64,000 nt of DNA from Akkermansia muciniphila. Lineage in GTDB: Bacteria > Verrucomicrobiota > Verrucomicrobiia > Limisphaerales > UBA9464. The translations under genes and the position numbers were made by a program. This document shows, piece after piece, positions 25,303-41,851 of this stretch. The notes beneath the pieces are model-generated. The model was not told where the DNA came from, did no database searches, and saw only the letters and a list, made by a program, of their open reading frames with translations. The stretch is from positions 1 to 64,000 of the forward strand of contig CAMDGV010000003.1 of assembly GCA_945898055.1 (NCBI GenBank), read 5' to 3'. Each line of letters starts with the position of its first letter. Position 1 is the stretch's first letter.

Positions 25303-26676
25303 TTAAAAGGTGAAGTAAATGAAATCGATACGAGCTCCAGCATAAGCGAGAATCAGATAACCCGCGAAGGAGGCGAGAATCCACTGAACCGGAAGAGACA
25401 GTTGAGTGAAACGGACTTGGCGAAAAGATTGGGTGAGTGGCATTTGCAAAAGAAGACAGGCAATTAGCCAGGTAACCAAAGCTCCAGGAACTTTGGACGA
25501 AGTAAATGGAGGCAGAAGCAAGCGATGAAAGTAGAGGAGGGCCTGACTGATTTCTGGAGACCGAAAGAGGACCCAAAGCAAACAGATGCCATGGAAAACC
25601 AGGAGGGTTCTTAGAGATCGTAGAAAGCGATTATCCCAAGACCTGGGTAGCGAGGGCGTATGACGTTCAATAATAAGCCACAGTCCGTGACCGAAGCCCC
25701 AAAGAAGGAAATTCCATCCTGCACCATGCCAAAGCCCAGCAAGGGTCATGGTGATCAGCAGATTGATGTCTCGATTCCGTCGATTGCCGCCGAGCGGTAT
25801 GTAGAGATAATCTCGAAACCAAACCGACAAAGTAATATGCCACCGACGCCAAAAGTCCTGCAAAGTGTTGGCGAGATAGGGGGCATTAAAATTTAGAGGG
25901 AGCACGATCCCGAAAAGCGCGGCCAGTCCAACCGCCATGGTTGAATAGCCCCAAAAGTCCGCAAATAATTGAAAAGCGTAGGCATAGAGGCCGACCCAAG
26001 CTCCGACGGTGGTGAGGACGGCCGGGTGGCGGAAGGCGTCGTCTGCAAATTGGGCAAGAACATCTGCCACCCCGATTTTAAGAGCGAGTCCTCCGATCAG
26101 CAGCCATAACCCTTGATGAAATGTCGTGGGATTGAACCGTCTTAGTTCTTGGAGTTGAGGAAGTAAATCTCGCGCTCGGACGATTGGGCCGGCGATGAGT
26201 TGCGGGAAGAAGCATTTAAAGACAGCAAACCGCAGCAAAGATGTTTCCGCCTCGATTTCGCCTCGGCGGATATCGATCTGGTAGGCGACGACTTGAAAGG
26301 TGAAAAAGGAGATGCCAAGCGGCAAAAAGGCCGGCGGACGGGGCACGGAGACGACGGCTCCGACCGCGGCCAATAAGGCGTTTGCTGAGTCGGCGACAAA
26401 GGCCGCATATTTGAACCAGAATAAAAGGGAGAGGTTGACACTAATCGCGACCAATAAAACAGGGAGAGAACGGGTCCGAGCTTGAAGACGTCCGGCGAGA
26501 TAGTTGAACCCAATGGTGCCGACCAGTAGGAAAGCACTTGGCCAGTGGTGTGCCGCATAAAAGAGAAGCGAGGCCACAAACAAAATACCTAGGCGAACTC
26601 GATGCCACGGAGTCATCCAGTAGGCTGCCACTGCAGGAAGCAGCAAGAGAAAGAAACTGAAGGAATTAAAAAGCAT
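25303..26676 (-). CDS. MBOAT-family O-acyltransferase, AlgI-like
   Basis: A 457-residue polytopic inner-membrane protein with about 11 hydrophobic segments. It carries the AlgI/DltB pattern: LGISFFTFQVVAYQID, FFPQLIAGPIVR, LQDFWRRWHITLS, WLYIPLGGNR-type loop (YLYIPLGGNRR), GLWHGAGWNFLLWG and the key His in GFGHG. Family members pass an acyl group, usually acetyl, across the membrane to alginate, cellulose or peptidoglycan partners. The gene is separated by only 3 bases from the upstream SGNH-like gene, so the two form an operon and probably an O-acetylation pair. The target polymer is unknown. Confidence 0.92.
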   Translation of the reverse strand: MLFNSFSFFLLLLPAVAAYWMTPWHRVRLGILFVASLLFYAAHHWPSAFLLVGTIGFNYLAGRLQARTRSLPVLLVAISVNLSLLFWFKYAAFVADSANALLAAVGAVVSVPRPPAFLPLGISFFTFQVVAYQIDIRRGEIEAETSLLRFAVFKCFFPQLIAGPIVRARDLLPQLQELRRFNPTTFHQGLWLLIGGLALKIGVADVLAQFADDAFRHPAVLTTVGAWVGLYAYAFQLFADFWGYSTMAVGLAALFGIVLPLNFNAPYLANTLQDFWRRWHITLSVWFRDYLYIPLGGNRRNRDINLLITMTLAGLWHGAGWNFLLWGFGHGLWLIIERHTPSLPRSWDNRFLRSLRTLLVFHGICLLWVLFRSPEISQALLYFHRLLLPPFTSSKVPGALVTWLIACLLLQMPLTQSFRQVRFTQLSLPVQWILASFAGYLILAYAGARIDFIYFTF

Positions 26677-26679
26677 TCA

Positions 26680-27699
26680 TCAAGGGCTGAGCAGTCGGGT
26701 GATCTCGATGGCTAAAGCCTGAGAATAGTGGGCCCGCCCTTCGGCATTGAGGTGGGACGGATCACGGAAGAATCGATCGGATACTTTGCTTGCGGAAAAG
26801 TCCCACACTTCGCATTGACTTCGGTACGAGACAGCCTGCAACAAAGGTTCCATTGAGGCACGTTCTGAGGTCAACGATGGGTGAGGTCGAAGGGGCGGTG
26901 AGGCAAAGACAACTTGAATCCCTCGGGCCTTGTACTGAGCAGCCACCTGACTGAACCGATCTGCAATCACCCACTGTTCAGCACCGGTATACAGCGTCTG
27001 AGCGCCGGCGTTTGAAGGAAGAACGATCGGTTGCCACGCCTGAGAATCAAAGTCTGCCGCTGGTTTTTCAGGATGGCCCAACCACACGCTTAGTTGATCT
27101 GCCCCTTTCACTTCCCACCCGCCGAGAGAGGGCGCAAAGAGCAGGAGGGCTGGGAGTCGAGCGATATTATCTGACAAAAAAGCGGAACGTTGTTTCACGC
27201 AGTGAAGCCTCTGGGCCCATTGGGTGAGTCGACCCTCTAAGGTCGAAGGGTTGGCTGTGACGACATCCCCTTTCCATGGAGTCGCTGGATTTCTCCGTTG
27301 TGGGTCTGACAATTCTATAACCACCAACTTCAATTCCGGCTTGGACAAGAAGCGGCTAGCGAGTGCTTCGAGGGCATCGAGACTCGAGCTTGTGAAGGCC
27401 GCATTATAGCCACGGATCTCCGCTAAAGCAGGGGCAAATTTTGTCACGGCCTCGGCGATCAAAGCGGGTGACACCCCATCTTGAGTTCGGGAAGTACCAA
27501 GGAAAAGGATATCCACCCGTGAATGACGCTCGAACATAGCGACCTTGGCGAGGGCGCGGTGGGAGGCAGCAGAGAAGAGCAACCCGTTGCGGCGCACTCC
27601 TAATTCCAGTAATCCAGCGAACACGATTAGACCCAGCACAAAGGCTAGAAGTCGGCGATGACTCTGGGTCAGAACAGGCATATGATTCGTTAAAGCCAT
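26680..27699 (-). CDS. Membrane-anchored SGNH-like partner of the MBOAT O-acyltransferase
   Basis: This 339-residue protein has one N-terminal transmembrane segment (LLAFVLGLIVFAGLLELG) and a periplasmic domain. FLGTSRTQDGV (about residue 68) is in the position of a GDS block with Ser, and DPSHLNAEG near the C-terminus gives the Asp/His pair of an SGNH fold (AlgX/AlgJ or DltD style). Such proteins take the acyl group from the MBOAT partner and load it onto a polysaccharide. It precedes the MBOAT gene with a 3-base gap. I accept the ATG at 27699; an internal ATG at 27681 is possible. Confidence 0.8.
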   Translation of the reverse strand: MALTNHMPVLTQSHRRLLAFVLGLIVFAGLLELGVRRNGLLFSAASHRALAKVAMFERHSRVDILFLGTSRTQDGVSPALIAEAVTKFAPALAEIRGYNAAFTSSSLDALEALASRFLSKPELKLVVIELSDPQRRNPATPWKGDVVTANPSTLEGRLTQWAQRLHCVKQRSAFLSDNIARLPALLLFAPSLGGWEVKGADQLSVWLGHPEKPAADFDSQAWQPIVLPSNAGAQTLYTGAEQWVIADRFSQVAAQYKARGIQVVFASPPLRPHPSLTSERASMEPLLQAVSYRSQCEVWDFSASKVSDRFFRDPSHLNAEGRAHYSQALAIEITRLLSP

Positions 27700-28025: not shown

Positions 28026-28844
28026 ATGGGGGGGGTGGCTGTTTCATCTCAACTCTTTCTCCAAACCAAGCGTTTGTTGCCTGGCGAGGAATGGAGTCCG
28101 CTCGAGAAAGGTTGGACTTTTGTTCAAGTGGGGTCGGGAGAGGCCTATGTCCTCGGCCCAAATCTAGCGATTGCGTGTCCGGCAGGGTCACTTTTTGTCA
28201 GTGCAGGTGGAGTGCCAGCGCAACTTCGATCTAGCCAAATCGGACCTTCGGTCATGCACTGGTTCCGCTTGGAAGCAGAGGCGATGTTTGGCGTCTTGAC
28301 CCTCCCAGAAAGACGCCGCTTGGATCAATCGGAGGCTGTGACACCGAAATTGCCTTGGGTATTATCGCCCGAAACAGAGGCCGCCCGTCAATTTGCTCGA
28401 GGTGTTCAAGCACCGGCTACCACCTCGCTTGGTCAGCGGAGTCGTTGGCTCGAAGTTGTGGCATTGGCGTTACTCCCAGCCGTATCTATACATCAGGAAA
28501 AACACGAAACCCATCTCGACGCGGGTGACCGGCTGGAAGAACTGGTGGCTTGTTTGACCGATTCCGAACTATTGGCATTGAGTTCAGGTCAACTAGCGGA
28601 GATCTGCCACTGTGAGAAGCGCCGGTTATTGCAGCTTTTTCGAGAGCGGATTGGCGTCAGTCTTCCAGTTCAACAGAGTTTTTGGCGCAAATCTAAAGCG
28701 TGCGCTTTGTTAGGTCAGCAAGGAGCAACCGTGGCGACGGTAGCGTTAGCTTGCGGTTATGCCGATCCTGATGCCTTTAGTGCTTGGTTTCGGCGGCAAA
28801 CAGGGATGTCCCCCCTTCCGTGGAAGCGTGAAAATTCAAAATAG
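28026..28844 (+). CDS. AraC-family transcriptional regulator
   Basis: A 272-residue cytoplasmic regulator. The N-terminal ~150 residues form a sensor domain without a recognisable ligand motif. The C-terminal ~95 residues form the double HTH of the AraC/XylS family; the second HTH reads TVATVALACGYADPDAFSAWFRRQTGMSP, with the family Gly-Tyr/Asp and Phe...Phe signature. It sits at the 5' end of a block of five same-strand genes (lipoprotein, exbB, exbD, receptor, surface protein) and is a natural candidate controller of them. The ATG at 28026 follows an AT-rich segment; a GTG at 28035 is also possible. Confidence 0.88.
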   Translation: MGGVAVSSQLFLQTKRLLPGEEWSPLEKGWTFVQVGSGEAYVLGPNLAIACPAGSLFVSAGGVPAQLRSSQIGPSVMHWFRLEAEAMFGVLTLPERRRLDQSEAVTPKLPWVLSPETEAARQFARGVQAPATTSLGQRSRWLEVVALALLPAVSIHQEKHETHLDAGDRLEELVACLTDSELLALSSGQLAEICHCEKRRLLQLFRERIGVSLPVQQSFWRKSKACALLGQQGATVATVALACGYADPDAFSAWFRRQTGMSPLPWKRENSK

Positions 28845-28901
28845 TAGTCAGGTTAAAGCGTATCGGCATTAAGACAAATAGATGACAATTCCAACCTGAA
28901 C

Positions 28902-28919
28902 TCGTCACTTAATTGTAAC
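28902..28919 (+). promoter_or_regulatory. Pho-box-like direct repeat upstream of the lipoprotein/exbB operon
   Basis: TCGTCAC, TTAA, TTGTAAC, 54 bases before the preferred start of the lipoprotein gene. Same layout as the elements at 27973 and 33744: a TCGTCA half site, a 4-base A/T spacer and a TGT half site. Probably a protein-binding site, with PhoB-type binding only a guess. Confidence 0.35.
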
Positions 28920-28973
28920 AGCCGCGACAAACTCCCGTAATGCCCCTGCCGATAGTTGAAGGACATGACTCAA

Positions 28974-29288
28974 ATGTCCTGCCTCAAGACGATCACCGTT
29001 CTCGTGACTAGCCTCCTGCTTGCAGTGGGTTGTGCTTCATCATCAGCCAAACTAGGTAAAGTTGGGTTGGGAATGACCCGTGAGGAAGTGGTGAAGACAC
29101 TCGGTCAACCGCACGCGCTTACTGCGCAAGGGAATGTGGAGTTTTTCACCTACAATCTTTTGAACAAGGGGGTTGGTGATATGAAGGAGTACGTGATTCG
29201 CATGCAGGCTGGAGTGGTTGAATCCTTTGGCGAACGCGCCAGTTTTGGCCCGACTCTCCTGAGTGTTACCAATGCACCAAGCCGCTAA
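28974..29288 (+). CDS. Small SmpA/OmlA-like lipoprotein
   Basis: A 104-residue exported lipoprotein: a short signal (MSCLKTITVLVTSLLLAVGC) ends in the lipobox LAVGC with Cys20 for lipidation, followed by SSS and a domain with VGLGMTREEVVKTLGQP, the pattern of SmpA/OmlA/BamE proteins. I chose ATG 28974 because a GAAGGA box (28958-28963) sits 10 bases before it; ATG 28965 and TTG 28956 are alternatives. It is the first gene before exbB (29 bases apart). It could be an assembly or sorting accessory for the unusual receptor downstream. Confidence 0.75.
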   Translation: MSCLKTITVLVTSLLLAVGCASSSAKLGKVGLGMTREEVVKTLGQPHALTAQGNVEFFTYNLLNKGVGDMKEYVIRMQAGVVESFGERASFGPTLLSVTNAPSR

Positions 29289-29317
29289 GCTCTCCGTAAT
29301 TCTGACCCGACTTTTCC

Positions 29318-30094
29318 ATGGACTTTCAACCTCTCTTCGCTAGCGCCCTGACCTTTGCCTTTGAAAAGGCGACGATCGAAGGGAAAATGACCATTTCTGC
29401 CCTCGTTCTGGTTTCGATGATTTCGTGGTCGGTGATGATTTCCAAGGCTCGGCAGATTTTTACCGCACGAGGGGTCACCCGGAAATTTATGGCCGCCTAT
29501 CGGGCCTCGAAGGATCCCCTTGCCTTATTCCGTTCAAAGCAAGCGTTTGTGGGATCTCCAGCCTATCAGGTCTACGTCTCGGGCTGTGAAGAGCTAGAAT
29601 ATCACTTAGAAAATAACCCTTTGCAGATTAAGGGGCAGAAGCGAATCAGTGCGGAGTCTTTTCAATCGGTTCAAATCGCATTGGAACGGGGTTTAAGTGG
29701 ACAGTCACTTTCACTGGAAAAAGGCATGATTGTCCTCACCACTGCTGTCTCTGGAGGGCCGTTTATCGGATTGTTAGGAACGGTTTGGGGTGTGATGGAA
29801 ACCTTCTCCGGCATTGCGATGGCGGCCAGCGCGAGTTTGACCGCAATGGCGCCGGGGGTGGCTGGGGCATTGATTGCAACGGTCGTCGGACTGTTCGTCG
29901 CTATCCCAGCTATGTTTGCCTATAATTTGATGATCACTGCCATCCGCGGCATCACTCAAGAATTAGACAACTATAATTCCGAGGTTGCGACCGACTTTGA
30001 GCATAAGTATGTCGACAATCGAGCCTTGGCAGATGAGATCGCTGATGCCCTTCGTTCTTTGGAAGATCCGCGACGTCAGAAGGGCGCCGTGTGA
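29318..30094 (+). CDS. exbB: ExbB/TolQ/MotA-family proton channel subunit
   Basis: A 258-residue inner-membrane protein with three transmembrane segments (about residues 22-42, 145-165 and 185-208) and a cytoplasmic loop between the first two, as in ExbB. The conserved segment LGTVWGVMETFSGIA...LTAMAPGVAGALIATVVGLFVAIPAM identifies the family. ExbB forms the pentamer around an ExbD dimer and converts the proton gradient into force on TonB. The gene is the second of a same-strand set and its end overlaps exbD in a GTGA arrangement, so expression is coupled. ExbB is preferred over TolQ or MotA because of the TonB-type receptor next door. Confidence 0.92.
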   Translation: MDFQPLFASALTFAFEKATIEGKMTISALVLVSMISWSVMISKARQIFTARGVTRKFMAAYRASKDPLALFRSKQAFVGSPAYQVYVSGCEELEYHLENNPLQIKGQKRISAESFQSVQIALERGLSGQSLSLEKGMIVLTTAVSGGPFIGLLGTVWGVMETFSGIAMAASASLTAMAPGVAGALIATVVGLFVAIPAMFAYNLMITAIRGITQELDNYNSEVATDFEHKYVDNRALADEIADALRSLEDPRRQKGAV

Positions 30095-30540
30095 GTGGCT
30101 TCACTTCGCGTCGTGGGCGTAAGAAATTTTCCGTTTCGCACCATCATGCGATGGGTGAATTAAACATTACACCCTTACTAGATCTAGCCTTTGTCTTGTT
30201 GGTGATTTTTATCATCACCACCGCTCCATCAACCAACGATATCGACATTAATTTGCCTTCAGCCGGTCAGCAACCGCCGCAGAACCAAAGTAAACAAGAT
30301 ATCAATAATGTGACGGTCGATTCAGCTGGGAATGTTTTTTTCAATGCTGAACCTATTACGCTGAAGAAATTAGAAGACACGATTATTGCGTTTCGGAAGA
30401 CCAACCCTGATCTCAGCGTGGTGGTGCGTGGCGATGAGAATGTGAACTACCAGAAGGTGGTTCAGGTTCTAGATATTCTGACCAAAGCTAACGTGACAAA
30501 AATCGGTCTAGCGACCGATACAGCGGGTGCTTCCAACTAA
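30091..30540 (+). CDS. exbD: ExbD/TolR-family proton channel subunit
   Basis: A 149-residue bitopic protein with a single N-terminal transmembrane helix. The proton-accepting Asp31 lies in NITPLLDLAFVLLVIF, exactly in the family position, and the periplasmic domain (about 65-145) includes VVVRGDENVNYQKVVQVLD. It works with ExbB. Translation starts at GTG 30091, overlapping the stop of exbB by 4 bases, and the next gene begins 9 bases after its stop. The partner TonB is not a separate gene here; see the following gene. Confidence 0.93.
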   Translation: MSGFTSRRGRKKFSVSHHHAMGELNITPLLDLAFVLLVIFIITTAPSTNDIDINLPSAGQQPPQNQSKQDINNVTVDSAGNVFFNAEPITLKKLEDTIIAFRKTNPDLSVVVRGDENVNYQKVVQVLDILTKANVTKIGLATDTAGASN

Positions 30541-30549
30541 GGCCTCCCT

Positions 30550-33500
30550 ATGTCGCGTAAGGTTAAGAACGGCTCTGACAGGACGGGGTTAGCGATTTCT
30601 GTCGCTGTCCATATTGTGGCCCTGTCGGGATTGGCTTATTTGGCGCATCGTTCTGGATTCGTCCCGGCTGCCATTTACAAGATTACAGGAATTAAGGCAC
30701 CCGAAAAGCCTAAGCCTAAACCCAAGCCCCCAACTCCGCCGCCGAATGTTCCGCCGCCGAAGCAGGCTGAAATAGTCGAAGAGACGACGACGCCCCCGAG
30801 TGTTGTACCTGCGGCAGCCGCCCCACCGACGGCGAGTGCGGCTCGAACCGATGCGCCACCCGTCGCGGGGGGGGGAGTTGGTAATTTTTTTAAAACAGAA
30901 GTTCGTAAACCGGATGCCGCCCCAGTGAGAGCGATCCAAGGTAAACCGGGGACCGGTGCTGGCACGCTTGATGCGTCTAAATCAACTGCCTCGGCGACGG
31001 CCACCAAATCCGCCTTCGATGCCACCTCTACCAAGCCAAGTACGATTGCAGCGGTGCTGGAAGAGCGAAGAAGTGCGGCGAGCGCACAAGAGGCAGTGAG
31101 CAGTGAACAAATCGCTCGGAGCGGTGGCGGTGATGCCGCTCAGATAACCACAAAAATTACCGGAGTCATTGCTACTGAAAATAAGCAGATCGTGGTCCGC
31201 GGTTTGAATGATCGCTATAATATGGCGACTTTGAACGGCGGAGCGTTGCCGAGTGCCGATCCACGTCGCAGAGCGCCGCAATTGGACATGATTCCTTCGG
31301 CGATGATCGATAAAATTGTGGTCAGCAAAACCTTCACCCCCGATCTTCCCGGTGGGTTTGCAGGGGGTGCCGTTAACATTGTGACTCGATCCTTTCCAGC
31401 GAAAGCCTTTACGACGGTCACGGTCGGTTCTGCGGTAAATACGGAGACCAGTTTTAACGATGGCTTTCAACGGGTGGCCGGCGGGAAAAACGACTTTTGG
31501 GCCTTGGATGATGGAACTCGTGCGCTGCCGGCGGGAGCTTTAATTGAAGCTTCGGTCCTGACTGAAGCACAGAAACCATGGCGTCTTTCGAATCAACAAG
31601 ATTTGGGAAGTCAGCGGCTTGCCTTAGCCGAGTCCTACGACACGGCACTCCGCTCTTTTCGTAATAATTCTTTTGCTCCGACCGCTGGTGCACCCGGACC
31701 TAATTCCAATTTTGCTCTCTCCAGTGGCGATACGACTTGGTTGGGTGGCAAACGGGTTGGATGGTTCGCCACCTTCACTCAAGATCGTAGCTATCAGTTT
31801 AACCAAGGAGCTCTTCGTGGACGTTATTCGTACGGTCAAGACCCGGTCGATGGCGGCCCTCTTTTTCGCACCTCCGAGTTCAATCGTGATCAGTCGACCA
31901 TCAATAGTTCCTTTGGCGCAGTGGCCAGCACCGCAATCGAAATTGGTCCCGGCCACGAACTTTCCTTCGGCTTTGTTCACAACCAAAGTGCGCAGCAGTT
32001 TGCGATCGAAGAGAATGGTAAAACCGTCAACCAGTTCGACCCAGGATCCGTTGAGCGCACTCGGATCTATCAACTCAGTTATCGAGAACGATATCTTCAG
32101 AATTTTCAATTCAAGGGGCGGCATGAATTACGTGAGCTAGGTGCGGCCCAAGTTGATTGGAGCTATTCGATGGCCTCGACCGCGGAGAATTCTCCGGACG
32201 AGCGCATTTTCCCGATGATTCTTTTCCCCGTGGGAAATGGATTAACTAATATCGTCGCTCAGTCCGCCGAGCTTCCTAACATTAACCAACCGACTCGTTT
32301 CTTTCGCGATTCAACCGATACCAGTCGAAATCTGCGAGCGGATTTGACTCTTCCCTTTACTCCAAATAACGGGTTGGAGAGCTCGTTTAAGCTAGGGGTC
32401 AATTCCTTGGAATCAGAGCGTCAACTGCAAGAGCACCGTTTCGAATATGAGATTAGTCAAACCACGGGGGCTAATCAACGAGACATCGATACCTATGCCA
32501 ATTCCGTACTGAACTTCCAAGGTCAGCAATTTGTCACCAACTTCACCGGCAGCGGAACGACACGTCGAGCGGCTTTTAATTTTCCCAATGCCACCTTCCT
32601 GCGATCAGGGCTCCCCTCGGATGGGTATGGATACAGCGGAACTCAATCCATTCCTGCGGTCTATGCGATGGGAGACTTTTTCTTGCATCCAAAGTTCCGT
32701 TTAATTGGGGGCGCACGGGTTGAAAAAACCGACCTACAAGCTGCAGTTTTGCCTCGGAGCCAGATTCTTGGATCACCTTCTGGTGGACAAATTGCCACCA
32801 CCGACGTGATGCCGTCGGTCAGTGCGGTGATTCCGCTGACCTCACAGGTGAGCCTACGCGGGGGTTGGTCTAGTACGGTTGCGCGCCCGACTTATCGAGA
32901 GTTTGCTCCCTACGAATACTTCGACACCACCGACGGCCTCGCGTATCGAGGTAATGGAGCCTTGCGTCGCACCACCATCAATAACTTAGATGCTCGATTA
33001 GAATGGTATCCAGCGCCTGGCGAGTTATTTTCGTTCGCTTTATTTCAAAAGGATTTAACCGATCCAATTGAACCTTTGATCGCCGATAATGCTGCGGGAA
33101 TTGTGAGCTTTACAAATAATCCAACCGCGACAATCCGCGGCGTTGAACTTGAAGCTCGAAAGGGTCTTGGTTTTCTTGATCCGTCGTTTTCGGGTGTCTC
33201 CCTCGGTGGCAATTTTGCCTACATTCAGTCGGTCGTCGATGTCTACTATCCCTCAGGTGCGGGGGTCGCTCTTTATCAACGGCCTCTCTTTGATCAACCC
33301 GATTATATCGCCAATGTTGATCTCACTTGGGAGGTAGCCCGCCTCGGTTCTACTCTCTCGATTTCCTATGCTCGCAGCGCGCAACGATTGGCCGTCGACG
33401 GCGGGCAAGGCAGCCCTAACATCTACGAGCAGCCTGCCGATTCGCTGGATATCTTCCTGAGCCAAAAGTTGGGATCACGCTGGCGGTTAAGGTTGGGGGC

Positions 33501-33642
33501 AAAGAATTTAATGGATCCAGCTTTTCGCCAAATCTTAATTAATGATCTCGGCGAAACAGCCGAGCGATATGGCGATCGCTACGTGTTTCGTTCCTATCGA
33601 CGTGGCGTGACGGTCAGCCTCTCGCTCAGTGCCGACTTCTAA
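30550..33642 (+). CDS. TonB-dependent receptor with an N-terminal TonB-type inner-membrane anchor
   Basis: A 1030-residue protein in three parts. Residues 1-48 are a TonB N-terminus: one transmembrane helix (about 13-35) with Ser17-x3-His21 and Leu28 spaced as in the E. coli TonB S16/H20/L27 set, which contacts ExbB/ExbD. Residues 50-73 are a Lys/Pro-rich arm (EKPKPKPKPP...) followed by a flexible Ala/Thr linker to about 170. Residues about 175-285 are a plug domain (VVRGLNDRYN...SADPRRRAP, VVSKTFTPDLPGGFAGGAVNIVTRS), and 290-1030 form a beta-barrel ending in Phe (SLSADF). There is no cleavable signal peptide and no TonB C-terminal domain. It follows exbD directly, so the whole chain may be its own energised transporter. 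Confidence 0.9.
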   Translation: MSRKVKNGSDRTGLAISVAVHIVALSGLAYLAHRSGFVPAAIYKITGIKAPEKPKPKPKPPTPPPNVPPPKQAEIVEETTTPPSVVPAAAAPPTASAARTDAPPVAGGGVGNFFKTEVRKPDAAPVRAIQGKPGTGAGTLDASKSTASATATKSAFDATSTKPSTIAAVLEERRSAASAQEAVSSEQIARSGGGDAAQITTKITGVIATENKQIVVRGLNDRYNMATLNGGALPSADPRRRAPQLDMIPSAMIDKIVVSKTFTPDLPGGFAGGAVNIVTRSFPAKAFTTVTVGSAVNTETSFNDGFQRVAGGKNDFWALDDGTRALPAGALIEASVLTEAQKPWRLSNQQDLGSQRLALAESYDTALRSFRNNSFAPTAGAPGPNSNFALSSGDTTWLGGKRVGWFATFTQDRSYQFNQGALRGRYSYGQDPVDGGPLFRTSEFNRDQSTINSSFGAVASTAIEIGPGHELSFGFVHNQSAQQFAIEENGKTVNQFDPGSVERTRIYQLSYRERYLQNFQFKGRHELRELGAAQVDWSYSMASTAENSPDERIFPMILFPVGNGLTNIVAQSAELPNINQPTRFFRDSTDTSRNLRADLTLPFTPNNGLESSFKLGVNSLESERQLQEHRFEYEISQTTGANQRDIDTYANSVLNFQGQQFVTNFTGSGTTRRAAFNFPNATFLRSGLPSDGYGYSGTQSIPAVYAMGDFFLHPKFRLIGGARVEKTDLQAAVLPRSQILGSPSGGQIATTDVMPSVSAVIPLTSQVSLRGGWSSTVARPTYREFAPYEYFDTTDGLAYRGNGALRRTTINNLDARLEWYPAPGELFSFALFQKDLTDPIEPLIADNAAGIVSFTNNPTATIRGVELEARKGLGFLDPSFSGVSLGGNFAYIQSVVDVYYPSGAGVALYQRPLFDQPDYIANVDLTWEVARLGSTLSISYARSAQRLAVDGGQGSPNIYEQPADSLDIFLSQKLGSRWRLRLGAKNLMDPAFRQILINDLGETAERYGDRYVFRSYRRGVTVSLSLSADF

Positions 33643-33643
33643 T

Positions 33644-33665
33644 CCGGCACACCCTTTGGTGCCGG
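33644..33665 (+). terminator. Stem-loop after the receptor gene
   Basis: CCGGCAC and GTGCCGG form a perfect 7-bp stem around an 8-base loop, starting 2 bases after the receptor stop codon. No T-run follows, so it may be a factor-dependent terminator or an mRNA-stabilising structure separating the receptor from the downstream surface-protein gene. Confidence 0.4.
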
Positions 33666-33743
33666 CAAGTCCTTTCAAGTGGCTTCCTTCAATCCCTCAA
33701 AAGAGGTGCGAACTACCGCAATTTTTACAGGATAGACATAGAG

Positions 33744-33761
33744 TCGTCATCTAACTGTGAC
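33744..33761 (+). promoter_or_regulatory. Pho-box-like direct repeat upstream of the giant surface-protein gene
   Basis: TCGTCAT, CTAA, CTGTGAC, about 70 bases before the start codon; AACTG-TGA-CAGTT is also a short palindrome here. Same layout as the elements at 27973 and 28902. It suggests the surface protein has its own promoter under the same regulator. Confidence 0.35.
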
Positions 33762-33832
33762 AGTTTAATTTAAAACTAAAAATTGACTTGCTGAGTTCAG
33801 GTCGATGACAAACCAAACTAAAATTGATTCAG

Positions 33833-36800
33833 ATGAAAAAATATTGTTGGAGTCAAGGGCTTAAGGCAATCGCTGCCTTTATGCTCCTGCTCGTGTCGGA
33901 AAAGGCCTCGGCCGCAACGAACCATATATCAGGCTATTTATATGGTTCCCATCGTTGGGTCGCCACCAATTCTTATATTCTAGATGGCTTCACCTATGTG
34001 ATGAATAATGCTGTTCTCACCATCGACGCCGGTACGGTCGTTCAGGGATCGGCAGGAAGCGGTTCGTCTTCCACCGCCGCCAATGACTTCGGAAATCTCT
34101 ATGTTTGCGTCGGCGGAAAACTCAACGCGATCGGCACTCCGACTCGCCCGATTATTTTCACGTCCACTTCTGATGACGTCACCGATCCAGGCGATCTTAC
34201 ATTCCCAAGTCGCGGCCTTTGGGGTGGCATTGTTATTTTCGGCGCGGCTCGTTTGAATAATGCGGGCTGGACGACGAACTCGGTCAGCTATGATATCTAT
34301 GAAGGTCTCCCTGATCTGGCAGTGACCAACACCACAGTCGGGAGCCCCTACTTGGGGCAAGTGGATTATGTGCACCGCTTTGGAGGTTCCAATGACGAGG
34401 ATAGTTCTGGAGTTATGCGTTATGTTTCAGTGCGACATGGCGGCAAGAAACTGACCACCGATAAGGAAATTAACGGATGGTCTATGGGAGGTGTGGGGCG
34501 CGGGACAACGATGGAATATCTGGAGGCTTATTGTATTGCCGATGACGGCTATGAGTTCTTTGGTGGTTGCGTTAATACCAAGCATCTAGTGAGTGCCTTC
34601 AACGATGACGACGGCTTTGACACCGACCAAGGATACAACGGTAAGAATCAGTTTTGGTTTGGGATCCAAGAGGCCGGCGCGAAGGACAGTGGAGCGGAAC
34701 AGAACGGTCAACCTCAGGCCCCGGATGCTTATGTGACCAACGCTCTGCCCTTAGCCAACTACATCGTACAGAACGCCACCATGATTGGATCAGGAGCAGG
34801 CACAACCGGCAACGACGCCTTACGGTTTCGACGCGGGAACAAGGCAACTTGGCGGAACTCAGTGATCACCGACTTCGGCGGGGTCCGAGTACGAATCGAT
34901 GATGACGGTGAATCGACGCCCACGGTCGTTAACAATATCTTCTGGGGATTCAGCACCAATAGTAACGAGGATTACGGTAAAACCTATGTGCCAGCCGATA
35001 AGAATCCGGTCGAAAACCCGTTAATTCGTTCGATCGGCCGAACTCAGAATGGAAGATTAGATCCACGACCGATGGCAGGAAGCCCGGTCTTTACCGGAGC
35101 ACTTAATGTGGAGTCTGATGGATTCTGGAGCCCGGCACCCTTCAAGGGAGCCTTCGATGCGAATGACAATTGGGCCGACGGATGGACAGGTCTTGCCGCT
35201 GAAGGTTTTTTTGCGGCAAAAGGAGTCACTACTAATTACGTAAGTGGCTATCTCTACGGCACTCATACTTGGTCCGCTACCAATGTTTATATTCTAAACG
35301 GATTCACCTATATCATGAGTAACGCTGTCGTAAACATTGAGGCTGGCACCGTCGTAAAGGGCGTCTCAGGGAGTGGAACATCGAGCGTCTCTGCCAACGA
35401 CTTTGGTTGTTTATTTGTTGTTGCGGGAGGTAAGCTCAATGCCCGAGGCACCTCAGGGAACCCGATCATTTTCACCTCGGTGTCTGATGATGTGACCGAT
35501 CCGAGCGACCTCCCTTTTCCGACCCGAGGTCTTTGGGGCGGCATTGTGGTGTTCGGTAATGCGCGTTTGAATAATGCGGGCTGGACAACGAACTCTGTCA
35601 GCTATGATATCTATGAAGGTCTCCCTGATCTGGCGGTGACCAACACCACCTTTGGCAGTCCCTACGCGGGGCAAGTGGATTATTTGCACCGCTTTGGAGG
35701 TTCCAATGACGAGGATAGTTCTGGAGTTATGCGTTATGTTTCAGTGCGACATGGCGGCAAGAAACTGACCACCGATAAGGAAATTAATGGATGGTCTATG
35801 GGAGGTGTGGGACGCGGGACAACGATGGAATATCTCGAGGCTTATTGTATTGCCGACGACGGCTATGAGTTCTTTGGTGGCTCTGTCAATACCAAGTACT
35901 TAGTGAGTGCCTTCAACGATGACGACGGCTTTGACACCGACCAAGGATACAACGGTAAGAATCAGTTTTGGTTTGGGATCCAAGAGCCCGGCGCCAAGGA
36001 CAGTGGATCGGAACAGAACGGTCAACCTCAGGCCCCGGATGCTTATGTGACCAACGGCTTGCCTTTAGCCAACTACATCGTACAGAACGCCACCCTGATT
36101 GGATCAGGAGCAGGCACAACCGGCAACGACGCCTTACGGTTTCGACGCGGGAACAAGGCAACTTGGCGGAACTCAGTAATCACCGACTTCGGCGGGGTCC
36201 GAGTACGAATCGATGATGACGGTGAATCGACGCCCACGGTCGCTAACAATATCTTCTGGGGATTCAGCACCAATAGTAACGAGGATTACGGTAAAACCTA
36301 TGTGCCGGCCGATAAGAATCCGGTAGCGAATCCCCTTTTAGGAGGCATCAGCCGAATTCAAAACGGGAACTTGGATCCGACCCTGACCGCGGCAAGTCCG
36401 GCTTGGGCCTTTGGGGCAACTGCAACCGATGGGTTCCAAGCCGTCGCCTATGCGGGCGCCTTTGGTTCGGAAAACTGGGCACAAGACTGGACAGCCTTAG
36501 GATCTGAAGGGTTCTTCAAATTGACTCCGGTTACCGATTTACCAACCGGCCTCACGGGCCAGAACCAAGCTCCAAGCTTCACGCTACCGGTCACCAGAAA
36601 ATCTGCTGGGTCGAGTCTGGCCTGGACAAAGCTGTCTAATAACCACGATTCATGGAATGGGATATCCCTATCGACCAACGGCAGCGTGGTGGCGGTCACC
36701 TCCTCCTCCTCTTTGGTAGTTTCGAGGGACGGTGGCTTGACTTCAACCATCGAAGTGGTTCCAGGAACTGGCTCTTTCAGAGCCGTTGCGGTCTCAGCCA

Positions 36801-39349
36801 GTGGTTCGCAGATCCTAGTGGCCCGGGGCAATCGGTTGTATATCTACCGCAATGGCGCTTGGGCCTCGTCAACGAGCCCTTCAGCGAATTGGGTCTCAGT
36901 TGCCTCATCGGCTACTGGTACTCACTTGGTAGCTGCAGTTTCCAACGGTCAGATTTATTGCTCGACCGACTCCGGTTTGACTTGGACTGGGTATGCGACC
37001 GTTCAAGACTGGCAGGCGGTTACTTCCTCAGCTGATGGCACTAGGCTCGCAGCAGCGGCTTACAACGGAGCCATCTACACAACGGTCGACAACGGCAGAA
37101 ACTGGATTGCGCAGACCGTCGACGGTAGTGCAAATCGGACTTGGTCATCGATCGCATCGTCGGCCGATGGTTCCAAATTGGCAGCGACGGAAACGAACGG
37201 AAAACTCTATACCTCAACCGATGGCGGGGTGACGTGGACAGCGCGGAATTCTAACCGAGGGTGGTCGTCGGTCTCTATGTCTAGCGATGGCAAGTTCCTA
37301 GTGGCCGGTGTACTGGGTGGCGCGCTTTATTACTCGGAGGATTCGGGTGTGACTTGGACTGCCAAGGACCAGGAGCGAATCTGGGGTGGAGTTGCGATCG
37401 CTGGCGACGGCAGCAATGCTGTGGCAACGGTCAATGACGGTGGTTTATACCGCTCTATTGCCTACGATACAGAATCAACCTTAGCCGTCTTAGAAGACGA
37501 AGTGACGACCCGGCCTGGGTTTGCATCTAATCTTTCTGCCGGTCCCGCAAGTGAGGTATCCCAAGCTTTGAGTTTCGTTGTAACCACTAGTAATCCCGGC
37601 CTATTCGCCTCCGGGCCAACGATCAGTTCTACGGGTACATTGACTTTTACACCTACCCCCGAAGCCAGCGGCACAGCAGTGGTGCAAGTTTATCTCAGAG
37701 ACAACGGTGGCTCTAATTATGGTGGAACCGACCAGAGTGCTGTGAAGGTGTTTACTATAACAGTTGCTCCGGTGAACGACGTACCGGCAGTCAATTCGCA
37801 GACCGTTACGATCGACGAAGATGTTCAAAAACTTCTAACTTTGATCGGTACTGATGTAGAAGGAGCTAAGTTAACTTATACGGTAGTACGCTCGCCGGTA
37901 AAGGGGTCGCTGAGTGGTACTGGCACGAACTTAACTTATATCCCATTTGCGAATGCAAACGGAACCGACAGCTTCACCTATAAGGCTAACGACGGCGAGT
38001 TGGACTCGGCCCTCGCGACCGTATCAATTACGATCGCCGCGGTTAACGACGCGCCGGTGGTTAACGCTCTGGCGGTTGAGGCGATTGAAGACACGACTAA
38101 GCTAATCACCTTGGCGGGTACAGACGTAGAAGGGTCTGGGTTGTCTTACACCGTGGTGACCGGTCCGATCAACGGCACACTTACTGGGACGTCTCCGAAC
38201 TTGGTCTACTCTCCGAAGCCAAACGTCTTTGGTCTCGACAGTTTCACCTACAAGGCCAACGACGGTTCAGCGGACTCAGCCATCGTGACCGTATCGATTA
38301 CGATTGCGGCGGTTAACGATGCACCAATCGCTGGCAGACTGACGACTGTTGTCGTGGAAGACACAGCTAAGGCGATCACCTTGGTGGGTACAGACGTAGA
38401 AGGGTCGGTGCTGTCTTACACCGTGGTGACCGGTCCGACCAATGGCACACTGTCCGGTACATCGCCGAATCTGGTTTACTTGCCGAACCCGAATGTATCC
38501 GGGGCCGACAGCTTCACCTACAAAGTTAACGACGGCTCGGTGGACTCGGCCCTCGCGACCTCATCAATTACAATCGCGGCGGTTAATGACTCACCGGTGG
38601 CTCAAGCCCTGACGGTTGAGGCGATTGAAGACACGACTCAGGTGGTCACCTTGTCGGGTACAGATGTAGAAGGGTCAGTGTTGACTTACACCGTTGTGAC
38701 CGGTCCGACCAAGGGCACACTGTCCGGTACTCCGCCGAATCTGGTCTACTTGCCGAACCCGAATGTATCCGGGGCCGACAGCTTCACCTACAAAGCTAAT
38801 GACGGTTCAGCGGACTCGGCCCCAGCGACCGTATCAATTACAATTGCTGCGGTTAACGACTCACCGGTCGCGTTCAATGTATCGGTGAAGACAGAGCAGG
38901 GTTCCCGTACGGAATTCTCGTTGGTAGGTTCAGATCCTGATGGTTCTGAACTGACCTACGCACTGCTGACTCAACCGACGAAGGGGACCCTTTCTGGTAA
39001 CGCTCCAGACTTGATCTACACGCCGAATTCGAGTGCATCAGGGGCGGATACGTTCACTTACACGGTCAATGACGGCACTGAGACCTCTGCTGAGGCGACG
39101 GTTACTATTGAGATAGCTACAATCGAAGTGCCAATCCTGACCCTTATATCGAGTGATGGGGTGACACTGTCTTTGGAAGTGCGTGCATCGGAAGGTGCTG
39201 TAGTGACTGTTGAAGGTTCAACGGAACTTGGTATCTGGCTCGCGACGGGCAGCGAGGTAACCGGTAAAGGTATGAGCGTGCCTGTTCCGCTCTCCCTGAA
39301 GATTGATTCAAACGTGGAGGCTCGGTTCTGGCGCCTGAACATCCGGTAG
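33833..39349 (+). CDS. Giant secreted repeat protein: duplicated beta-helix-like module, propeller repeats and Ig/cadherin-like repeats
   Basis: An 1838-residue exported protein. The signal peptide is residues 1-28. Two copies of a ~438-residue module follow, each with TIDAGTVV-type strands, GGNL/IFTS, GGSNDEDSSGVMRYV and EINGWSMGGVG; this is the beta-helix-like family commonly found beside TonB receptors in Bacteroidetes and Gammaproteobacteria. A third region (about 920-1210) holds BNR/propeller repeats with SSADGTKLAA. Five ~90-residue Ig/cadherin-like repeats (about 1315-1760) each begin near VNDAPV and contain GTDSFTYKANDG. A short C-terminal beta domain ends the chain. I prefer ATG 33833 over TTG 33824. 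Probable role: surface partner of the fused receptor. Confidence 0.88.
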   Translation: MKKYCWSQGLKAIAAFMLLLVSEKASAATNHISGYLYGSHRWVATNSYILDGFTYVMNNAVLTIDAGTVVQGSAGSGSSSTAANDFGNLYVCVGGKLNAIGTPTRPIIFTSTSDDVTDPGDLTFPSRGLWGGIVIFGAARLNNAGWTTNSVSYDIYEGLPDLAVTNTTVGSPYLGQVDYVHRFGGSNDEDSSGVMRYVSVRHGGKKLTTDKEINGWSMGGVGRGTTMEYLEAYCIADDGYEFFGGCVNTKHLVSAFNDDDGFDTDQGYNGKNQFWFGIQEAGAKDSGAEQNGQPQAPDAYVTNALPLANYIVQNATMIGSGAGTTGNDALRFRRGNKATWRNSVITDFGGVRVRIDDDGESTPTVVNNIFWGFSTNSNEDYGKTYVPADKNPVENPLIRSIGRTQNGRLDPRPMAGSPVFTGALNVESDGFWSPAPFKGAFDANDNWADGWTGLAAEGFFAAKGVTTNYVSGYLYGTHTWSATNVYILNGFTYIMSNAVVNIEAGTVVKGVSGSGTSSVSANDFGCLFVVAGGKLNARGTSGNPIIFTSVSDDVTDPSDLPFPTRGLWGGIVVFGNARLNNAGWTTNSVSYDIYEGLPDLAVTNTTFGSPYAGQVDYLHRFGGSNDEDSSGVMRYVSVRHGGKKLTTDKEINGWSMGGVGRGTTMEYLEAYCIADDGYEFFGGSVNTKYLVSAFNDDDGFDTDQGYNGKNQFWFGIQEPGAKDSGSEQNGQPQAPDAYVTNGLPLANYIVQNATLIGSGAGTTGNDALRFRRGNKATWRNSVITDFGGVRVRIDDDGESTPTVANNIFWGFSTNSNEDYGKTYVPADKNPVANPLLGGISRIQNGNLDPTLTAASPAWAFGATATDGFQAVAYAGAFGSENWAQDWTALGSEGFFKLTPVTDLPTGLTGQNQAPSFTLPVTRKSAGSSLAWTKLSNNHDSWNGISLSTNGSVVAVTSSSSLVVSRDGGLTSTIEVVPGTGSFRAVAVSASGSQILVARGNRLYIYRNGAWASSTSPSANWVSVASSATGTHLVAAVSNGQIYCSTDSGLTWTGYATVQDWQAVTSSADGTRLAAAAYNGAIYTTVDNGRNWIAQTVDGSANRTWSSIASSADGSKLAATETNGKLYTSTDGGVTWTARNSNRGWSSVSMSSDGKFLVAGVLGGALYYSEDSGVTWTAKDQERIWGGVAIAGDGSNAVATVNDGGLYRSIAYDTESTLAVLEDEVTTRPGFASNLSAGPASEVSQALSFVVTTSNPGLFASGPTISSTGTLTFTPTPEASGTAVVQVYLRDNGGSNYGGTDQSAVKVFTITVAPVNDVPAVNSQTVTIDEDVQKLLTLIGTDVEGAKLTYTVVRSPVKGSLSGTGTNLTYIPFANANGTDSFTYKANDGELDSALATVSITIAAVNDAPVVNALAVEAIEDTTKLITLAGTDVEGSGLSYTVVTGPINGTLTGTSPNLVYSPKPNVFGLDSFTYKANDGSADSAIVTVSITIAAVNDAPIAGRLTTVVVEDTAKAITLVGTDVEGSVLSYTVVTGPTNGTLSGTSPNLVYLPNPNVSGADSFTYKVNDGSVDSALATSSITIAAVNDSPVAQALTVEAIEDTTQVVTLSGTDVEGSVLTYTVVTGPTKGTLSGTPPNLVYLPNPNVSGADSFTYKANDGSADSAPATVSITIAAVNDSPVAFNVSVKTEQGSRTEFSLVGSDPDGSELTYALLTQPTKGTLSGNAPDLIYTPNSSASGADTFTYTVNDGTETSAEATVTIEIATIEVPILTLISSDGVTLSLEVRASEGAVVTVEGSTELGIWLATGSEVTGKGMSVPVPLSLKIDSNVEARFWRLNIR
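33929..36327 (+). repeat. 1314-base in-gene tandem duplication with a homogenised 3' part
   Basis: Copy 1 starts near 33929 and copy 2 near 35243, a constant offset of 1314 bases (438 codons). The first ~320 bases of each copy are clearly diverged, whereas 34251-35013 and 35565-36327 are almost identical at the DNA level, including third codon positions. This indicates either a recent partial duplication or gene conversion limited to that block. Confidence 0.85.
37763..39112 (+). repeat. Five tandem 270-base repeats encoding Ig/cadherin-like units
   Basis: Units of 270 bases (90 codons) start near 37763, 38033, 38303, 38573 and 38843, each beginning with a segment encoding (A)AVNDAPV or a close variant. 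Units 3 and 4 are the most alike in DNA. The period is exact, so unequal crossing-over can change copy number. Confidence 0.85.
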
Positions 39350-39677: not shown

Positions 39678-40193
39678 TCAGCGCCCTTGCCATTGTTGAT
39701 TCCGAGCTTTGAGGCGTTCTGCACTCGGCTTCGTTTCGGCCCTGACAATTAAGTTTGTTCCAGAGGTCCAAGGGATCTCGGTGAAGTCAACTGACAGAGT
39801 GCGAGTCACCATCTCCAAAGCATGGCCGAAAGCATTAATGGAAATGGTGCCTGGCAGTTGCGTGGTATCGAGGAAAACGATCGGACCGAAGGGCGTAACA
39901 TTGGTGTCTGGCCGACTATAGATCCAAGTGATTGGACCATTGGTCACCCGCGGTGCGGACTCGCCAGGAAAGTTAATTGAGAGTGGGCCAGCGGATAAAA
40001 TTCGAGGATGCTCGATCCGCAACTGCGGGGTCCCATCTTTGAGCGTGTCAAAAGTAAGATGCCACGCTCCGCTCCGAACGCGGTAGGCTTGGCATCCCCC
40101 GTAGATGGTCACGTAGAGAAACAGGGTGGCTAAGAAAACGCCAAAAAAGCGGCGGAGCGTTTTTTCCGCCTCGGGTGAAAGATCAGAGTTCAA
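39678..40193 (-). CDS. Single-pass membrane protein of unknown function
   Basis: A 171-residue protein with one transmembrane segment near residues 15-37 (FFGVFLATLFLYVTIYGG) and a periplasmic beta-rich domain. No motif I recognise. It lies on the same strand as, and 65 bases downstream of, the aldehyde dehydrogenase gene and may be co-transcribed. The ATG at 40193 gives a sensible short cytoplasmic N-terminus. Confidence 0.65.
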   Translation of the reverse strand: MNSDLSPEAEKTLRRFFGVFLATLFLYVTIYGGCQAYRVRSGAWHLTFDTLKDGTPQLRIEHPRILSAGPLSINFPGESAPRVTNGPITWIYSRPDTNVTPFGPIVFLDTTQLPGTISINAFGHALEMVTRTLSVDFTEIPWTSGTNLIVRAETKPSAERLKARNQQWQGR

Positions 40194-40257
40194 TGGGGAA
40201 GAGGATCTGAGGAGCGATTCGGTTCAAGATGAGAGAGCGGGCCAGTCTGGTTAAAGA

Positions 40258-41694
40258 TCACCAAGCCCGTTCGATGGATCGGCGTTGCCAGAGAAACTCA
40301 AACATATTGCCTTCATGGGGTTGATCCCACGAAATCTTCATCGTGGATACCGGCCCAATATTTAGGCGGTCGATTTCTGTAGAGGCTTCTAATTGGGCGA
40401 TGAAAGCTGGGTCTTTGGTAATTGCGGAGCAGGCAAGAGTGTAGCCGATGCTGCGGACCATTTCCGATTGTGGCACTTGAACAACACTCGCGTAGGGGCA
40501 AAGAAATTCGCGATTAGAAAGCGGGTGCTGAAAAGAATCACAACGGATGATGGTGGGCTTCAAAAAGACTCCTAGATCCCCGGTAATTTTTCGTGGGCCT
40601 GTCCGATATTTTGCAGTCACATCCTCTGCGCCAGGCACATTGAGACCGTCTTCGAGTTGACTATCGATATAGTCGGCCATCTTAGGATTGGCGAATCCGG
40701 ACAATCGAGCCTCTGGATCGTCGGGTGCCGTGGGAACAAGTGCGCCCAGACGTTGAGCAAGAGCGTCGGCAATTTCTGCGGCGTATTTGGGGACAATCAC
40801 GGCACTCGCATTGATGCAGGAGCGGCCTCCGTTGTCAGAGATACTGGCCACCATTACCTCGATAAAATCAGGCCAATTCTCGATCTGATCGTCGCCAATC
40901 AGGAACTTACTCCAACCGGGTCCGTGAACTTGGATACCTGGGTTCGAGGCATATTGTTGGGTAGTCGATTTGTCGCCGAAAATCAGGGCGCGACCGCAGG
41001 TATTGAGGATGGTAGCGGCTCCCTCGTGATCAGTGGGGTAGAAGCCGAAAGCTTCGGATGGAACCCCAGCCGCGATAAAAGCTTGGATCAGGCGGAAAGG
41101 TGTCCACGGTTCTTCCTTGCCCGGTTTAATAATCACCGGCGTCTTTAGTGAAATGGCTGGAACCCAGAGTGAATTCACGGCTGGGGAATTGCTAGGCATC
41201 ACCAATCCAAGGGCGTGAGCCGTGGGAAAAAAAGACAACTTGGTTCCAAACTGTTCGCCGTAACCACGATCTAAGATGCTTAAATCCAGTCCACGGGACA
41301 GGCCGTTCAGGATTTCCGTCATGTGGGTTAAGGCGTAGTGTATCTTTACCATATTACGCCGCACCATCACGTAAGGTAGTCCACTGGTAGTGCTCAAGGT
41401 ATGGACATACTCTTCGGCACTCTGGGTATGCCCACGGTCGCCGAGGGGTAGAGTTCCTTTGAAAAATAAATCACCCGCCTTAGCACTGATCTCCATTAAC
41501 TCCGAAACTGTAAACCGATTCAGAGCAGCACGGGCCTGACCTAACTTTTGAAGGTCCTTGCGGACGATCCCTGCATTGACCGTCGACATCACCGCTCGCA
41601 CCTCACCTGTGCGATAGTCTTTCACCTCACTTTGTTCCAGTGAAGCGTAACTGCGACCAAGACGTAAGACGGGAAGATGGGGTATTTGGCTCAT
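40258..41694 (-). CDS. Divergent aldehyde dehydrogenase-family protein
   Basis: A 478-residue cytoplasmic NAD(P)-type dehydrogenase of the ALDH superfamily. Recognisable parts are the nucleotide-binding core VMPSNSPAVNSLWVPAISLKTPVIIKPG-like segment (about 165-192) and the nucleophile Cys293 in NGGRSCINAS. The usual general-base Glu in ELGG is replaced by HGPG near residue 257. Loss of this Glu is typical of CoA-acylating or acyl-reductase members of the superfamily, so an acyl-CoA or acyl-phosphate substrate is possible. I use ATG 41694; the frame is open to 41769 but that extension does not look like the family. The substrate is unknown. Confidence 0.85.
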   Translation of the reverse strand: MSQIPHLPVLRLGRSYASLEQSEVKDYRTGEVRAVMSTVNAGIVRKDLQKLGQARAALNRFTVSELMEISAKAGDLFFKGTLPLGDRGHTQSAEEYVHTLSTTSGLPYVMVRRNMVKIHYALTHMTEILNGLSRGLDLSILDRGYGEQFGTKLSFFPTAHALGLVMPSNSPAVNSLWVPAISLKTPVIIKPGKEEPWTPFRLIQAFIAAGVPSEAFGFYPTDHEGAATILNTCGRALIFGDKSTTQQYASNPGIQVHGPGWSKFLIGDDQIENWPDFIEVMVASISDNGGRSCINASAVIVPKYAAEIADALAQRLGALVPTAPDDPEARLSGFANPKMADYIDSQLEDGLNVPGAEDVTAKYRTGPRKITGDLGVFLKPTIIRCDSFQHPLSNREFLCPYASVVQVPQSEMVRSIGYTLACSAITKDPAFIAQLEASTEIDRLNIGPVSTMKISWDQPHEGNMFEFLWQRRSIERAW

Positions 41695-41851
41695 GCAAAA
41701 ATAACGTTCGGAGAGAAACTGGAGCGTTTGGTCGGAATTGGCAAACGGAGGTTTTCGAACAGAGACCACGACCTTCTTTCGATCAGGATACTTTTTGCAT
41801 CGGCTGATCGACTCAAGGCCCCTTTGGCAGTAACTTCGTTGATTAAGTTAA

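Follow-up and report, generated by a model that had tools for sequence, protein, structure and literature searches.

A receptor fused in frame to a TonB-type transducer front end: a putative outer-membrane importer joined to its own ExbB/ExbD motor

The window analysed here, a 64,000-nucleotide stretch of a verrucomicrobial genome (4.63 Mb, 136 contigs, 95% complete), encodes a receptor (30550-33642, + strand) that is an in-frame fusion of a TonB-type transducer front end (residues 1-165) with a plug and a barrel. We propose, with a probability of roughly 0.7, that its locus specifies an outer-membrane importer covalently joined to its own ExbB/ExbD power transmission, which would dispense with the docking and release of TonB. 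The proposal draws on architecture, conservation, exchange and homology as read from sequence; from these we infer that the chain would escape cleavage, insert in both membranes, be energised and import a substrate.

The locus comprises six reading frames on the + strand (28026-39349), all confirmed by reading of the open frames and by Pfam domains; the six same-strand genes of the initial annotation were each found in place with the expected domains. They encode an AraC-type regulator (28026-28844; HTH_18, 52.3 bits), a small lipoprotein that is weakly BamE/SmpA-like (28956-29288; 21.5 bits against a Pfam cut-off of 23.2), the ExbB/TolQ-type motor ring protein (exbB, 29318-30094; MotA_ExbB, 95.8 bits), the ExbD/TolR-type motor axle protein (exbD, 30091-30540; ExbD, 105 bits), the fused transducer-receptor of 1030 aa (30550-33642; Pfam Plug 34.7 bits, barrel 110.3 bits) and a large surface protein (33833-39349; open frame and Pfam). 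The 1838 residues first reported for the latter agree with a start at ATG 33833, while a start at TTG 33824 gives 1841 aa. The exbB frame runs 4 bases into exbD, and the receptor gene follows exbD after a gap of 9 bases. The genes on either side lie on the opposite strand (25303-27699 upstream, 39678-41769 downstream), the two minus-strand genes upstream apparently coding for an MBOAT/AlgI-like acyltransferase and a partner. The fifth product had been described as an anchored receptor; the anchor is real, but the description understated it, since the anchor is the front end of a TonB-type transducer, which had gone unrecognised.

The N-terminus of the receptor has a positively charged start followed by one hydrophobic helix, which matches the transducer helix in profile comparison. 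Residues 1-36 (30550-30657) form a basic cytoplasmic tip and an inner-membrane helix of TonB/TolA type, with the motif S17-x3-H21. Both residues are invariant in the 17 fused proteins of our first alignment (A1), and H21 is invariant in all 19 sequences of a wider one (A2). The SHLS motif of E. coli is partly kept: its first Ser is Ala in some fused helices, and its last Ser is Ala here. The helix is followed by a linker rich in Pro and Lys (residues 37-165, 30658-31044; 129 aa, 24 of them Pro), then by a plug with a VRGLNDRY motif and no TonB-box segment upstream (residues 166-300, 31045-31449; Pfam Plug at 174-274), and finally by an outer-membrane barrel (residues 301-1030, 31450-33639), recognised by Pfam and by the match of its model to solved TonB-dependent receptors. 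The AlphaFold model is of low quality (mean pLDDT 53.5) and gives no reliable information on the N-terminal part; its comparison with PirA (5fp2) gave a VIA-align Z of 22.5, with an rmsd of 2.8 over 437 aligned residues. A phmmer search of the receptor against solved structures returned weak receptor matches only, and its best NCBIfam family was TIGR01782 (236.4 bits, under the cut-off of 310).

The fused protein therefore lacks one defining feature of each parent family. With TonB-dependent transporters it shares plug, barrel and fold, but it differs in having no TonB-box segment and in carrying an uncut-looking transducer helix and linker. With TonB and TolA of E. coli it shares the S-x3-H helix (motif as given in the accessible part of PMC12215075), the Pro/Lys-rich linker and the adjacency to exbB and exbD, but Pfam finds no TonB_C or TonB_2 domain in it, and a whole receptor stands in place of the transducer's C-terminal domain. 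For this reason we file it as a covalent transducer-receptor: its body would be that of the TonB-dependent family without being classed as TonB-box-dependent, and its N-terminus would work like the front end of a transducer without being a TonB.

A family search of 50 genomes, from which the 17 whole-length proteins of A1 were taken, recovered the whole protein in one open frame, from residue 1 or near it, in 14 genomes of the genus and three of genus g8. The fusion also occurs in an independent record, a MAG of Pedosphaera sp. recovered from the depths of Lake Baikal, where the best segment is 96% identical; there the N-terminal part continues in frame into the plug, and a frameshift lies further on, in the barrel. 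On the evidence of these reading frames, we conclude that the fusion is real and not an accident of assembly. Elsewhere in the genus, 28 further receptors were sampled by reading their frames directly, and none of the 28 has such an anchor or N-terminal part.

Run on 320 genomes of the order, the A1 profile found matches in 99 and yielded 97 classified rows: 33 fused loci, 54 ordinary loci in which receptor and transducer are split, 6 cut by a contig end and 4 others, two of which are a single locus of genome G243 with the N-terminal part present. Left out of the 97 were duplicates or fragments (L001, L002, L021, L022, the second being the Lake Baikal record), receptor-less loci (L057, L058, L060-L062), four of the 99 matched genomes (G020 and G024, both fused, and the fragments in G030 and G034) and a second, partial match in G117. 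Fused loci come from 12 families and 15 genera, ordinary ones from 20 families. exbB and exbD lie directly upstream of the receptor in 33 of 33 fused loci; since the fused class required [S/A]-x3-H, at least 13 Pro and an upstream ExbD, this figure is partly set by definition for helix motif, Pro and ExbD, ExbB being outside the definition. None of the 97 classified rows has helix and linker without ExbD.

A rule-free check with a profile of residues 1-123, which holds no receptor, gave a concordant picture across the 320 genomes: 40 matches scored at least 113 bits, in 39 genomes; the frame is 745 aa or longer for 35 of them and cut, frameshifted or decayed for the remaining five. Below 113 bits we found two fragments of a fused gene in G031 and otherwise only matches of at most 66 bits in small frames of a size like that of free TonBs; the 320 genomes showed this front part in no further receptor family. 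A scan of 236 genomes of the class gave receptor matches in 24 that lie outside the order; none of these matches extends into the first 149 of the 1000 profile positions, and nine of these outside loci show, by eye, a signal-peptide-like start followed by a carboxypeptidase-like domain. Two far relatives have a broken gene, which we count against a fused importer. In G243 (L205:2520-3120) a single in-frame TAG falls in the linker soon after the helix, for which sequencing error, decay and readthrough are all possible explanations, and in G179 (L252) the N-terminal part is intact and plug and barrel are in pieces.

Concerning the origin of the front part, the profile of the fused N-terminus matches every one of the 18 free TonB_2 proteins with scores of 45-68 bits, against at most 8.9 bits for 360 shuffles of these TonBs, at most 19.0 bits for 52 TonBs from ordinary operons and at most 0.5 bits for 54 ordinary receptor N-termini; the helix region alone gives 16.8-47.8 bits with the free TonBs against 5.7 with shuffles. 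In 16 of the 18 cases the free tonB has an exbD gene on either side, with exbB ahead of them, and in the other two the contig ends early. The likeness extends along the linker up to a shared motif (DAP...G..FF.D.R in the fused proteins, APP..G..F.F.DGAK in the free ones), which in the free protein sits just before the C-terminal domain. As it stops there, the receptor has replaced that domain. These operons come from the same taxonomic order as the fused loci and share with them homologous ExbB, ExbD and TonB front part, mid-linker motif included, but their TonB is unfused, about 220-250 aa long with its own C-terminal domain, and a second exbD follows. From these profile and alignment data we conclude that the source of the front part is an unfused TonB that carries a TonB_2 domain, of the kind encoded in exbB-exbD-tonB-exbD operons. 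G041 and G042 hold the free and fused versions together.

TonBs from ordinary operons were rejected as the source, given their profile scores of at most 19 bits and the presence of [S/A/T]-x3-H in 2 of 52 helix windows, a rough count because for several TonBs the window missed the helix. Operons of the exbB-exbD-tonB-exbD type were observed at L057, L058, L060-L062 and L224-L236, with two different exbD genes flanking the free tonB; among the larger of these loci some have very long frames upstream, which in three show a weak AraC match.

The ordinary loci have the order DUF3450, TtpC-like ExbB, ExbB, ExbD, TonB, TPR protein and then receptor, an arrangement like that of the TonB2/TtpC system of Vibrio. 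Receptor family and surface-protein family are the same as in the fused loci, but the differences lie in a separate TonB of another lineage, the TPR protein and a CarboxypepD_reg domain on the receptor (one example, by Pfam). According to gene calls or, for GC-rich loci, gene calls or tblastn, a separate tonB occurs in 0 of 33 fused and 52 of 54 ordinary loci (the two exceptions being on contigs that end too soon), the TtpC-like gene in 0/33 against 49/54, and the TPR gene in 0/33 against 54/54. A TonB-box segment before the plug was found in 0/33 fused and 52/54 ordinary receptors with a pattern that was derived from, and so fitted to, the ordinary receptors, so that a box of another shape could sit elsewhere. 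The two ordinary receptors it missed show the segment by eye, and a narrower pattern, tried first, gave 0/33 and 31/54. One genome, G177, holds both forms.

These comparisons bear on a simpler account, in which the N-terminus would consist of a normal signal peptide and, after it, a periplasmic extension rich in Pro, and a separate TonB would energise the receptor. A charged start with a single hydrophobic helix does resemble a signal peptide, and the host encodes separate TonB_C proteins that could serve. We nevertheless consider this account unlikely: it is at odds with a helix and linker that match free TonBs far above shuffled sequences, with the invariant His of the helix and with the lack of the TonB-box segment throughout the fused loci, whereas the ordinary versions of the receptor have the CarboxypepD_reg domain in that place, in the example seen by Pfam, and a tonB next door.

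The linker is 111-140 residues long across all 33 fused loci. In eight close pairs of genomes its dN/dS was 0.02-0.18, compared with 0.04-0.15 for the barrel, and the short helix region gave 0.08-0.34 in the seven pairs where it could be computed. On these ratios, selection maintains the linker as it does the barrel. The linker contains the mid-linker motif DAP...G..FF....R (residues 101-120, 30850-30909), in which A102, P103, F114 and R119 are invariant in 16 of 16 sequences and whose alignment places it at the same position as the segment preceding the C-terminal domain of free TonB_2 proteins. It may be an element of contact with the motor, possibly with ExbD. A by-eye comparison with the D-box of E. 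coli, as described in the accessible part of PMC10907165, found no clear copy of it in the linker, and we therefore treat the motif as a candidate only.

A tether of 129 residues could be accessible to proteases, and in one relative an in-frame stop codon falls in this stretch; the single chain might accordingly be cut there, leaving a TonB-like stub and a receptor to function independently. We rate this as quite unlikely. The products would have no means of meeting again, the stub being devoid of a C-terminal domain and the receptor of a TonB-box segment, and neither the steady length nor the constraint on the linker is what such a cut would lead one to expect.

As to the motor, the ExbBD/TolQR domains and the contact and proton residues are all present at the locus. 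In E. coli, according to the accessible part of a cryo-EM study, the Ser and the essential His of the transducer motif touch Ser34 and Trp38 of ExbB (PMC12215075). The counterparts of these two in the ExbB of the locus are S33 and W37; Ser and Trp are found there in 32 of 32 readable ExbBs of fused loci, one of the 33 being unreadable at that place. The membrane Asp of ExbD, D31, is kept in 33/33.

With the N-terminal part removed, 85 receptor bodies gave a tree in which the fused state needs 6 changes by a quick method, and the well-supported branches force at least 5 switches between fused and ordinary. For instance, the fused L145 groups, with full support, with seven ordinary TonB-box receptors (L054, L055, L168, L179, L186, L190, L191). 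The ExbB tree requires 2 changes between fused and free and is compatible with a single origin (29% of bootstrap trees). The simplest reading of these trees is that the cassette of anchor and motor would have had one or few origins and that its receptor body was swapped repeatedly.

The same exchange bears on whether the protein might be a mechanical tether, joining outer and inner membranes in a Tol-like manner, with import secondary and ExbB/ExbD acting as TolQ/TolR equivalents. In NCBIfam the two motor proteins indeed match TolQ and TolR best, with scores under the cut-off of every family, and a free homologue has a C-terminal domain of TonB_2 type. Against a tether stand the complete plug and barrel under strong constraint and the exchange of receptor bodies, on at least five occasions, with ordinary import operons, and we regard it as highly improbable.

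If the protein is a covalently powered importer, as we propose, its N-terminal helix would stay uncut and dock on ExbB, with S17 and H21 set against S33 and W37, and its barrel would be embedded in the outer membrane. Protons flowing through the ExbB/ExbD motor, of which a 5:2 complex is the expected form, would move the linker and so pull directly on the plug, opening the channel, with no separate TonB having to dock and let go. Each receptor would have a motor of its own and would not compete for a shared cellular TonB. At about 3 angstroms per residue, 129 residues could stretch over nearly 400 angstroms, which exceeds a periplasm, and a resting tether could therefore be slack. The host has ExbD genes in 6 places in all, TonB_C proteins in 3 places and three other plug proteins; the fused unit would thus be an added, dedicated system, and with these others present the receptor's need for its own motor is presumptive. 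More broadly, we lean towards the view that one chain would run through the whole envelope and that energised transport could proceed without docking and release of TonB in each cycle, a permanent link being enough.

The locus had initially been described as a compact and self-contained unit of six genes, with conservation of the gene order in relatives as the test. That neighbourhood does recur, and the picture of a compact, conserved, energised receptor unit holds for the core of exbB, exbD and receptor, which is kept in all 33 fused loci; it fails for the other three genes, as the AraC, BamE-like and surface genes are not kept throughout. The BamE-like gene occurs in 17 of 17 loci of the family and in 0 of 16 elsewhere. 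The AraC gene is present at all 13 loci from the genus, where its product probably regulates the unit. This adjacency, together with the short basic cytoplasmic tip, would suit a sensor, in which the tether relays binding at the outer membrane to the ExbB/ExbD-like complex or to the cytoplasm. We think a sensor decidedly unlikely, because the AraC gene is mostly absent outside the genus (0/4 in g8, 1/16 elsewhere) and because ExbB and ExbD conserve the residues of a proton motor.

The pairing of the surface protein with receptors bearing a VRGL(G/N)DRY-type plug, also suggested at the outset, is borne out in both fused and ordinary forms, but it is not strict, as nine species of the genus with enough sequence have no surface protein beside the receptor. 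Within 6.5 kb downstream, the family occurs in 16/33 fused and 27/54 ordinary loci, many of which are on contigs that end early; where at least 2.5 kb of sequence follows, the counts are 6/19 and 14/24. The protein contains two copies of a module (79% alike), a BNR/Asp-box-like stretch and cadherin/Big_9-type repeats. A model of one module has low confidence (pLDDT 56.3); Foldseek gave no match for it at E <= 0.001, and the best VIA-align hit was a PL6 alginate lyase (Z 11.3, rmsd 4.8, 268 aligned). As model and matches are both weak, we tentatively describe the module as a right-handed beta-helix and claim no enzyme. The surface protein probably helps to capture the putative substrate.

In current models of Ton systems, as outlined in the accessible part of a recent account, TonB finds the loaded receptor by its TonB box, pulls, and detaches (PMC12905483). 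The accessible part of a survey of force transducers deals with the same families and their evolution, and describes other fusions, namely CpoB-TolB-Pal in PorE (Mol Biol Evol 2025, PMC12204202). We found no natural fusion of TonB and receptor in the open PubMed Central literature (a search without preprints and with few subscription journals), nor in the accessible portions of PMC12204202, PMC11658791, PMC12215075, PMC10907165 and PMC12905483.

How force passes in Ton systems, and whether release is needed, are still debated, and a receptor with its own pull-rod would skip the steps of finding the receptor and detaching from it. If our reading is true, docking and release of TonB in each cycle would be dispensable for energised transport, and the repeated exchange of receptor bodies would make linked and unlinked supply functionally interchangeable. 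If confirmed, the protein would be what we judge to be an uncommon case of a single polypeptide with an inner-membrane anchor at one end and an outer-membrane barrel at the other, raising the question of how such a chain passes the cell wall and the barrel-assembly machinery. The fused receptor would also offer a fixed complex for cryo-EM and single-molecule work, and its layout would allow tests of how TonB-type uptake is powered, in bacteria that have been little studied.
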